Shown: positions 1,044 through 57,064 of the stretch, in pieces | Layout: each line of letters begins with the position of its first letter | Position numbering within the stretch: position 1 is the first letter of the stretch | NCBI RefSeq assembly: GCF_029428675.1 | Contig: NZ_JAJNEL010000001.1 | Location: 1,302,001-1,366,000 of the forward strand | Direction: 5' to 3' | Source of the DNA: Streptomyces sp. JH14 | Lineage (GTDB): Bacteria > Actinomycetota > Actinomycetes > Streptomycetales > Streptomycetaceae | Length of the DNA stretch: 64,000 nucleotides | Notes under the pieces: model-generated | Told to the model about the DNA's origin: nothing | The model's database searches: none | What the model saw: the letters and a program-made list of their open reading frames with translations, nothing else | Translations under genes and position numbers: made by a program

Positions 1044-1642
1044 TGCCGCAGGGACAGCCGACCAACGTGCCGGACGACGGACTCACCACCCGTCAGCGCC
1101 GCAACCGCCCGCTGCTCTTCGTCCACACCGGCATCGGCAAGGGCAAGTCGACGGCCGCCTTCGGACTCGCGCTGCGTGCCTGGAACCAGGGCTGGCCGAT
1201 CGGGGTGTTCCAGTTCGTCAAGTCGGCGAAGTGGAAGGTCGGCGAGGAGAACGCGCTGAAGGTGCTCGGCGCGAGCGGTGAGGGCGGCACGGTCGCCTGG
1301 CACAAGATGGGCGAGGGCTGGTCGTGGGTGCAGCGGGACAACCAGCTCGACAACGAGGAGAAGGCCCGGGAGGGCTGGGAGCAGGTCAAACGCGACCTGG
1401 CCGCCGAGACGTACAAGCTCTATGTCCTCGACGAGTTCGCGTATCCGATGCACTGGGGCTGGATCGACACCGACGAGGTCGTCGACGTGATGCGCAACCG
1501 CCCCGGCACCCAGCATGTGGTGATCACCGGTCGCCATGCCCCGGAGAAGCTCGTAGAGGCCGCTGATCTGGTGACCGACATGACAAAGGTGAAGCACCCG
1601 ATGGACGCCGGCCAGAAGGGCCAGAGGGGCATCGAGTGGTGA
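1043..1642 (+). CDS. cobO: cob(I)yrinic acid a,c-diamide adenosyltransferase
   Basis: CobO/BtuR family, 199 aa. It transfers the adenosyl group of ATP to cob(I)yrinic acid a,c-diamide or cobinamide. The phosphate-binding loop is visible near residues 29-37 (T-G-I-G-K-G-K-S-T), followed by the family stretch GWPIGVFQFVKSAKW and the acidic LYVLDEF segment. I start at the ATG at 1043, which overlaps the upstream TGA (TGATG). A TTG one codon earlier is also in frame but is less likely. The gene ends in a second TGATG overlap with cobB, so the three genes form one coupled operon. Length and motifs are normal for the family. Confidence 0.95.
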   Translation: MPQGQPTNVPDDGLTTRQRRNRPLLFVHTGIGKGKSTAAFGLALRAWNQGWPIGVFQFVKSAKWKVGEENALKVLGASGEGGTVAWHKMGEGWSWVQRDNQLDNEEKAREGWEQVKRDLAAETYKLYVLDEFAYPMHWGWIDTDEVVDVMRNRPGTQHVVITGRHAPEKLVEAADLVTDMTKVKHPMDAGQKGQRGIEW

Positions 1643-56618: not shown

Positions 56619-56655
56619 GCTGAATTCCCCCGAATTCGTTGGGGGAAGACACAGC

Positions 56656-56799
56656 GCATGAGTGCCCGAGATCAGGAGTCGGCGACGGGCTTGCCTGATG
56701 CTCTGCCCATTGAGCTACCGGCCGTGGCCGGGCGGGACTCGAACCCGCAACCGTCAGATCCGAGAAGTATCCGTCACCTGCGCACCGGGCACCCGATGC
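56656..56799 (-). ncRNA. Y RNA-like unit 3 with permuted tRNA-like module (YrlA type)
   Basis: About 144 nt. The closing stem is GTGCCCG with CGGGCAC. The conserved 5' box GGTGCGCAGG (56786-56777) and 3' box CTGATCTCGG face each other in an internal loop; GGTGACGG pairs with CCGTCGCC above it. The tip is a tRNA mimic read in permuted order (56757-56695): CTGA half-stem, T arm with loop TTCGAGT (56748-56732), acceptor-like stem CCGGC/GCCGG closed by loop CACG, D arm GCTC/GAGC with a GG-containing loop (56715-56700), then TCAG closing the anticodon-like stem. There is no CCA and no free ends, so it is not a tRNA gene. It lies 38 bp upstream of Ro60. Confidence 0.85.
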
Positions 56800-56800
56800 T

Positions 56801-56877
56801 GTGCCTCCCGAGATCAAGGTCGGCGACGGCAGAACTTGTTTCGAAGAAGTAGCCGTAACCTGCGCACCGGGAGGTGC
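56801..56877 (-). ncRNA. Y RNA-like unit 2, minimal, without tRNA-like module
   Basis: About 77 nt. It has the same GGTGCGCAGG box (56868-56859) and GATCTCGG box as units 1 and 3, closed by CCTCCCG/CGGGAGG. Above the internal loop GGTTACGGC pairs with GCCGTCGCC (one mismatch). The tip is only a small hairpin (ACTT/AAGT), so this copy is the Ro-binding-like module alone. It sits between the two long units with almost no spacer. Boundaries are from pairing only. Confidence 0.72.
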
Positions 56878-56893
56878 GTGCAATTTCTTGAAG

Positions 56894-57046
56894 CTGTACG
56901 TGCCCAGAGATCACAGTCGGCGGAACCGACGAAGGTGCTCTACCCACTGAGCTACACCGGCTCGAAAGCCGATGGCGGGACTCGAACCCGCGACATCCCC
57001 ATGAAGAGTGGAAGTAGGTCCTGCCTGCGCACCTGGGCACAGACAG
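56894..57046 (-). ncRNA. Y RNA-like unit 1 with permuted tRNA-like module closed by UUCG
   Basis: About 150 nt. The closing stem is CTGT..GTGCCCAG with CTGGGCAC..ACAG. It has the GGTGCGCAGG box (57033-57024) and GTGATCTC box, and GGCAGGACC pairs with GGTTCCGCC above. The tRNA-like module (57000-56931) is permuted: T arm with loop TTCGAGT (56991-56975), an 8-bp acceptor-like stem CATCGGCT/AGCCGGTG closed by a TTCG tetraloop (56974-56955), and D arm GCTC/GAGC (56952-56937) with GG in its loop. TAGGGT at 57053-57048 is a possible -10 element for this first unit. It could be mis-annotated as a tRNA or tRNA fragment. Confidence 0.85.
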
Positions 57047-57064
57047 GACCCTAGAAGACCGGAC

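Follow-up and report, generated by a model that had tools for sequence, protein, structure and literature searches.

Three tandem units (A, B and C) precede the Ro60 gene of Streptomyces sp. JH14 and, judged by their sequence, they are probably Ro60-partner (Y-type) RNAs which share a Ro60-binding stem, differ in their tips and are co-transcribed with ro60. Unit A would carry a permuted tRNA with a predicted anticodon arm and unit C the usual YrlA tip, and unit B has neither.

Organisation of the array and its Ro60 gene

On the minus strand of the window (the whole 64-kb stretch of DNA analysed here), a TAGGGT hexamer, units A, B and C, a palindromic leader and ro60 follow one another in this order (Table 1). 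The 526-aa gene product has the TROVE domain of Ro60/TROVE proteins (Pfam PF05731, E 6.5e-12, 45.8 bits against a cut-off of 23), finds matches in two distinct TROVE-domain sequences of solved structure and shares 94% identity with a protein of Streptomyces sp. NBC_00154; NCBIfam models gave no match to it or to the gene upstream. The gene starts 44 nt past unit C on the same strand, which gives the array the position beside a Ro60/Rsr gene by which bacterial Y RNAs are recognised. The array and ro60 are flanked by a PhoX-family gene upstream (same strand) and a TerD-family gene downstream (opposite strand).

Table 1. Features of the array in the window, and tRNA genes annotated beside phage Ro-like genes (positions of the respective phage loci)
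Feature	Positions	Strand	Basis or remark
Promoter-like hexamer TAGGGT, 7 nt before unit A	57048..57053	minus	read from sequence
Unit A, Y-type stem with permuted tRNA tip including anticodon-arm-like hairpin	56900..57040	minus	box-to-box span 57033-56907
Unit A anticodon-arm-like hairpin TTCCA-CTCTTCA-TGGGG (tRNA positions 27-43)	56997..57013	minus	
Unit A variable-loop equivalent ATGTC (positions 44-48)	56992..56996	minus	
Unit A T arm	56975..56991	minus	
Unit A acceptor-like stem, 7 bp, closed by 6-nt loop TTTCGA	56955..56974	minus	
Unit A U8-A9, D arm and A26	56936..56954	minus	
Unit B, short Y-type unit without tRNA part	56804..56876	minus	box-to-box span 56868-56810
Unit C, YrlA-type unit without anticodon arm	56662..56792	minus	Rfam YrlA over 56777-56676; box-to-box span 56786-56668
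Unit C T arm	56748-56732	minus	
Unit C acceptor-like stem	56731-56718	minus	
Unit C D arm	56717-56699	minus	
Ro60 leader, TTCCCCC then GAATTCGGGGGAATTC around Shine-Dalgarno run	56622..56647	minus	sequence and relatives
Ro60 (TROVE-domain) gene, 526 aa	55038..56618	minus	Pfam, solved-protein matches, relative identity
Phage tRNA gene, L284 (Ser gct)	1274-1347		GenBank
Phage tRNA gene, L286 (Arg cct)	1269-1343		GenBank
Phage tRNA gene, L287 (Arg tct)	1204-1275		GenBank
Phage tRNA gene, L289 (Pro tgg)	1245-1335		GenBank

All three units are built alike, from a closing helix (7/7 pairs), GGTGCGCAGG, an inner helix, TACTTC, the tip and GATCTC, with an internal loop flanked by the boxes GGTGCG and GATCTC. 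The paired ends and conserved stem of a bacterial Y RNA are thus seen in each of them, with covariation for A. The original prediction had named three minus-strand units with two shared boxes, two tRNA-like tips and almost no spacers, lying upstream of a Ro60 gene, and both the sequence and the scan described below bear this out; the spacers measure 23 nt (A-B) and 11 nt (B-C). Its view of the two boxes as the common module was right as to the presence of both and incomplete, since TACTTC, a third shared box, belongs to the module together with the inner helix.

The YrlA-type identity proposed at the outset is backed by the Rfam YrlA model (RF02553), which matched unit C at 53.1 bits (E 4.3e-11) and unit A at 38.7 bits (E 6.2e-7, over 56998-56934), both significantly and both under its gathering score of 69 bits. 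By such a match the YrlA tRNA-like module is present in A and C; unit B gave none, and the gathering score was reached in 0/296 genomes of the class. The inner helix and TACTTC align with the conserved stem of the model, which stops short of the outer boxes. A third YrlA match in the same genome (C1:2028591) was rejected as false, being an overlap with two tRNA genes 6 nt apart. No similar array was found in plasmid records.

The scan for units (closing stem, GNTGCG, a TACTTC-like box and GNNCTC) was applied to 80 Streptomyces Ro60 loci. Upstream of Ro60 it found 198 units; 1,165,650 strand-bases elsewhere in the loci held 38, and 2.8 Mb of shuffled upstream sequence held 40. Elsewhere in the window it gave four matches, each with only 6/7 pairs. 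Permuted-tRNA modules numbered 114 in the arrays of these loci and 0 elsewhere in them, with 0 in 2.8 Mb of shuffles and 2 around 30 real tRNA loci. Since the counts upstream of Ro60 are far above those elsewhere and in the shuffles, the units cannot be put down to chance.

Conservation was followed in 81 rows, that is the window and 80 Streptomyces Ro60 loci (the best 80 of 223 relatives), which confirms the expected synteny upstream of TROVE genes in other streptomycetes. Unit A occurs in 59 rows, B in 75 and C in 71; all three stand together in 47, B+C in 20, A+B in 6, A+C in 4, A alone in 2 and B alone in 2. By the unit scan, counted separately, 43 of the 80 loci have three units, 32 have two and 5 have a single one. 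The mixture of long and short copies in a triplicate, at first regarded as unusual, is therefore the commonest state of the locus in Streptomyces. Unit B is reduced to its closing hairpin in four rows (L050, L055, L071 and L075), and similar remnants of unit C are found in L006 and L067. Selection keeping the hairpin-only B units was considered and dropped, as deletion between inverted closing stems explains them equally well.

In 54/59 A-first rows unit A is preceded, at a distance of exactly 7 nt, by a TANNGT-type hexamer, as judged by a pattern tuned by hand and with the window row too short for the script; of the rows without A, 16/22 have a promoter-like hexamer 9 or 16 nt ahead of B. A generic sigma-70 scan found no promoter at the array, and no terminator-like site was found on the minus strand between the array and ro60. 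The fixed distance of the hexamer from A, together with the lack of a terminator-like site before the gene, suggests that the array and ro60 form one transcript. Ahead of the Ro60 start, GAATTC-G(4-7)-GAATTC or a near form is present in 77/81 rows, and the G run is paired in 72/78 predicted folds, with a modest mean z of -1.25; this palindrome possibly serves translational control of Ro60. In other clades different hairpins were seen by eye around the Shine-Dalgarno run, e.g., CCCCTC..GAGGGG.

Permuted tRNA tip of unit A

Unit A contains all tRNA arms, permuted between positions 26 and 27, and its T arm is preceded by a 17-nt anticodon-arm-like hairpin with a 7-nt loop and by a 5-nt variable loop. 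The original prediction let this unit open at the anticodon stem, which is not the case, as the hairpin at 57013-56997 comes before the T arm. Of the two units for which it assumed the usual YrlA topology, unit C has it (T arm, acceptor-like stem and D arm without anticodon arm, the known YrlA form), and unit A departs from it by the additional hairpin. A tRNA-like domain of D, T and acceptor arms only thus describes C and not A.

The distance from TAC to the T stem is exactly 22 nt in 58/59 A units (units chosen by their flanks), and in these 58 the first 17 nt form an arm (5/5 pairs, 7-nt loop) that leaves 5 nt before the T stem; the remaining unit, in L002, is without the hairpin. In the arm loop of the 58 units C32, U33 and A38 are invariant, U36 is found in 57, A37 in 51 and C37 in 7, and positions 34-35 are variable. 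Among 73 distinct modules, other families included, C32/U33/A38 occur in all, A37 in 63 and U36 in 68. The loop of the window unit reads CUCUUCA, with C at position 37. The loop may be kept for a modification at position 37; the window has C37 and Pro-like units have G37. The triplet 34-36 is CAU in 20 of the 58 A units, GAU in 13, CUU in 11, GUU in 6, GCU in 4, and four others once each, i.e. nine different triplets in place of the constant anticodon of a permuted tRNA gene. Since the triplet drifts among species while the loop frame stays, the arm is likely to be read as tRNA shape and not for decoding; as it reads as many anticodons among these units, decoding by unit A seems unlikely.

Missing covariation of the stems and tRNA-like arms had been named as grounds for giving up the original prediction, and covariation was found both in unit A rows and in modules. 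For the whole unit A (alignment A4, 40 of the A units, chosen by flanks) 99.7% of positions were paired and covariation was 0.132 vs 0.081 (0/500 shuffles), with the number of further pair types reached by 40/500 shuffles. The 73 modules (A1), picked by a script that required paired arms, had 99.7% of cells paired and covariation of 0.218 vs 0.092 (0/500 shuffles). A set of 40 distinct arms from several families and two phages (A3) was 97.0% paired, with covariation of 0.608 vs 0.203 (0/500 shuffles); the arms were listed by hand from arm-bearing units, leaving out arm-less units and, except for Alone3, those phage arms that had fewer pairs or a loop of another length. On two other measures for the same arms, shuffles reached the observed value in 28/500 and 278/500. 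Alignment A2 contains one wrongly cut row (L130), and A5, with 46/71 C units, was inspected by eye without counts.

RNAalifold predicted the same four arms on the 73 modules, most of which have U-G pairs at the arm base. The arm is absent from the minimum-energy fold of the window unit A, which is 13 kcal/mol more stable than the proposed fold. Across the 58 A units the median pairing probability is 0.23 for the three inner pairs of the arm and 0.78 for the T stem; in the window these inner pairs reach 0.11. The single-sequence fold of unit C was no better than shuffles (z -0.99). We also tried ARAGORN, which called a tRNA in 58/59 de-permuted A units and in 978/1180 controls with the 22-nt segment shuffled. 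Because the shuffled controls pass as well, it says nothing about the arm and was dropped as evidence for it.

In each of the 59 A rows a loop of 4-7 nt closes the acceptor stem. Compared with the tRNAs of the same genome, de-permuted unit A agreed at 54/75 positions with Thr-CGU, 52/76 with Arg-CCU and 55/78 with His-GUG, and a genome search with it returned tRNA-Met and tRNA-His at 75% identity over 68 and 61 nt. No clear donor was found among the genome's own tRNA genes.

Units in other actinobacterial families and in phages

A Ro60 match at E <= 1e-30 is present in 51/394 genomes of the class. At 28 further loci, which come from other families or are divergent copies, the scan found 51 units in forward and 1 in reverse orientation, with 40 different closing stems; 9 of these loci had no unit by scan. 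Three scan-negative loci (L205-L207) hold permuted modules with the arm under changed boxes. The largest arrays have five units (L196 and L198). Several units resemble particular tRNAs, namely Asn-like permuted tRNAs with GUU (L194, L196 and L197; 61/76 in L197), Glu-like ones with CUC (L193 and L213) and Pro-like ones with G37 (L193, L196 and L198), where the likeness is moderate (about 64-80% identity) and measured against 42 tRNA sequences of the window's genome only. In the Glu-like units of L194 and L198 the CUC loop was found by eye with 4/5 pairs, and the script chose another frame with equal pairing.

Simpler tips were noted as well. By eye, one short unit without T arm stands at the loci of a divergent Ro60 group (61-71% identity; L114-L120, L125 and L129), and a short unit without T arm at six loci of family f3 (L136, L137, L139, L140, L142 and L143). 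We rejected the idea that family f3 is without tRNA-like Y RNA, for in three of its genomes (L274, L278 and L281) YrlA-type units with the same boxes lie on contigs apart from the Ro60 matches. Short units with a T-arm-like hairpin and no evident D arm occur at L132, L134, L135, L138, L141 and L188 (its fourth unit), and look like intermediates between tRNA-like and plain tips. Near a distant TROVE relative (27% identity), at about position 1286 of L133 (genome G017), lies a permuted tRNA-like module whose D arm is built differently.

Searching with tblastn, we found Ro-like proteins in 79 phage records, and 8 of the 79 were inspected for arrays. Unit cores (GNTGC..TTACTTC variants) stand upstream of the Ro gene in 7/7 phages searched by pattern, and were seen there by eye in Atuin. 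Gordonia phage VanLee has an arm UUCGC-CUUCUAA-GCGGG with 5/5 pairs, and the best arm frame in phages Alone3, BRock, GiJojo and pSt2308 has 4/5. An annotated tRNA gene by the Ro gene overlaps a Y-like unit in 4/8 phages (Alone3, GiJojo, VanLee and Frankenweenie). Read as normal tRNAs, they form at best 3, 3, 6 and 4 of 7 end pairs, respectively, and the tRNA genes beside phage Ro-like genes may thus be misannotated; with its 6/7 end pairs the annotation in VanLee appears the least doubtful of the four.

Possible role of the tips and comparison with known systems

Sequence, linkage, conservation and covariation are observed directly, and from transcription onward we infer each step. Transcription would start at the 5' base of unit A, and the transcript would be cut into separate RNAs, each held by Ro60 through the closing helix, the GGTGCG/GATCTC internal loop, the inner helix and TACTTC. 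Y RNAs bind Ro60 by a stem-borne site, according to PMC4726728, and PMC8394870 has the tRNA-like tip link Ro60 to PNPase and serve as a substrate of tRNA-modifying enzymes. By analogy, the tips would act as exchangeable adaptors that decide the partner of Ro60: a tRNA-like tip would bring PNPase or tRNA-modifying or tRNA-processing enzymes to it, as in the bacterial Ro60-Y RNA-PNPase model, and the short unit B RNA would serve simply as a cover or a tether. The tip of unit A would probably let Ro60 engage tRNA-handling proteins. More tentatively, and with a chance we put at a little below even, the Ro60 loci of actinobacteria and phages carry cassettes of permuted tRNA replicas (Asn-, Glu- and Pro-like), anticodon arm included, as swappable adaptors. 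The common Ro60-binding stem would then mount each replica and reach enzymes that modify, cut, repair or degrade tRNAs. Our estimate for this extension came down slightly on account of two Glu-like readings whose frame has 4/5 pairs.

It is unlikely, in our estimate, that these are ordinary YrlA-type Y RNAs in which a local hairpin, the additional one of unit A, takes the place of the upper helix without anticodon mimicry. Such a replacement would agree with the weak thermodynamic support for the arm, the U-G pairs at its base in most rows and the loss of the arm in L002, and the arm does carry the TTC of TACTTC, which is conserved also in units without a tRNA part. It would not account for the exact 22-nt spacing, the 7-nt loop with C32, U33 and A38 in 58/58, the 5-nt variable loop and the covarying stems, nor for the Asn-like bodies with GUU and the Glu-like bodies with CUC loops in other families. 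That unit A is a working permuted tRNA gene, cut and rejoined into a decoding tRNA, is very improbable despite its tRNA arms and its 75% match to own tRNA genes. Permuted tRNA genes that work occur in some algae and archaea. In unit A, however, the acceptor stem is closed by a loop in 59/59 rows, the nearest own tRNA is ambiguous, and the triplet would stand for several amino acids within one genus. The flanking Y stem would also need to be spliced out, and such splicing is not known in bacteria.

The array might also be a cis-acting leader of the ro60 mRNA, with Ro60 binding its own transcript and controlling translation via the Shine-Dalgarno hairpin. The same strand, the lack of a terminator-like site before the gene and the widely kept palindrome with its paired run fit this well; we still hold it improbable in view of the modest fold z-scores, the loss of single units while the gene stays, and the YrlA-type units on contigs without Ro60 in three family f3 genomes. 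Such control is compatible with the Y-type RNA explanation and does not exclude it. A further proposal, to which we would give perhaps one chance in a handful, is that anticodon nucleases, or the enzymes that modify anticodon loops, take the tips as decoys or substrates, and that Ro60 acts as a carrier by which tRNAs are protected under stress. Unit A does present a whole anticodon loop; a decoy role has been put forward for the Salmonella YrlA tip, itself uncut (PMC7790460), and PMC8628891 cites cleavage of tRNAs in Streptomyces coelicolor. Against it, unit C is without the loop. One specific anticodon nuclease is disfavoured, because the triplet varies among near relatives.

Tandem Y-type RNAs on one Ro60-binding stem thus remain our preferred explanation. 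In part they are of a kind already known, as regards the Ro60 linkage, the presence of more than one Y RNA at a locus, and the YrlA tip. The primary literature on bacterial Y RNAs comprises Chen 2013 and 2014, Sim and Wolin 2018, Wang 2018, Sim 2020, and Boccitto and Wolin 2019. A literature search excluding these primary papers found neither an anticodon arm in a Y RNA nor sets of different tRNA types on one stem; owing to this exclusion, the novelty of a permuted tRNA with anticodon arm and of mixed tRNA sets on one stem is provisional. Further sources are PMC9569102, PMC7824862 and PMC11208441.

If the reading of unit A is true, an RNA with every tRNA arm and a drifting triplet separates tRNA shape from decoding and gives a direct handle on the purpose of the Y RNA tRNA-like tip. 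The array has its own comparison built in, with a full mimic, a partial one and no mimic on the same Ro60 stem, and the genus is tractable. For annotation, it is of practical weight that the actinobacterial branch escapes the Rfam cut-off and that parts of units are annotated as tRNA genes in 4/8 phage records.

Among known systems, the array is closest to YrlA (RF02553) of Salmonella and Mycobacterium smegmatis, with which it shares the linkage to Ro60, the permuted T arm, loop-closed acceptor-like stem and D arm, the conserved inner stem and significant model matches; unit C is of YrlA form. It differs by scores under the gathering score, by the outer boxes GGTGCG/GATCTC beyond the Rfam model, by the anticodon-arm-like hairpin and variable loop added in unit A, and by unit B without a tRNA part. 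Bacterial Y RNAs have been described as mimics of three tRNA arms, and YrlA is given with D, T and acceptor arms in PMC8394870. With the Y RNAs of Deinococcus radiodurans and vertebrates the units have in common the Ro60 partner, a stem-borne binding site (here predicted) and a variable tip (PMC4726728). Unlike vertebrate Y RNAs, they are not matched by the vertebrate Y RNA family of Rfam, which was absent among 13 matches up to E 10. The pair GGUGCGAAGG/CUUGAUCUC presumably resembles the vertebrate Y RNA lower stem.

Tandem tRNA-Asn genes 4 nt apart (L275 and L276) score as YrlA because two tandem tRNAs read as one permuted tRNA, and tandem tRNAs are a possible route to permuted tips. Permuted rRNA and tmRNA have been proposed to derive from a tandem duplication whose outer segments were lost (PMC3978253). 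The swapped order of the halves is a feature that the window shares with the permuted tRNA genes of algae and archaea and with two-piece tmRNA. The algal and archaeal permuted tRNAs and two-piece tmRNA are processed to working products, whereas the permuted tRNA of the window is enclosed by a Y stem and has a drifting triplet.
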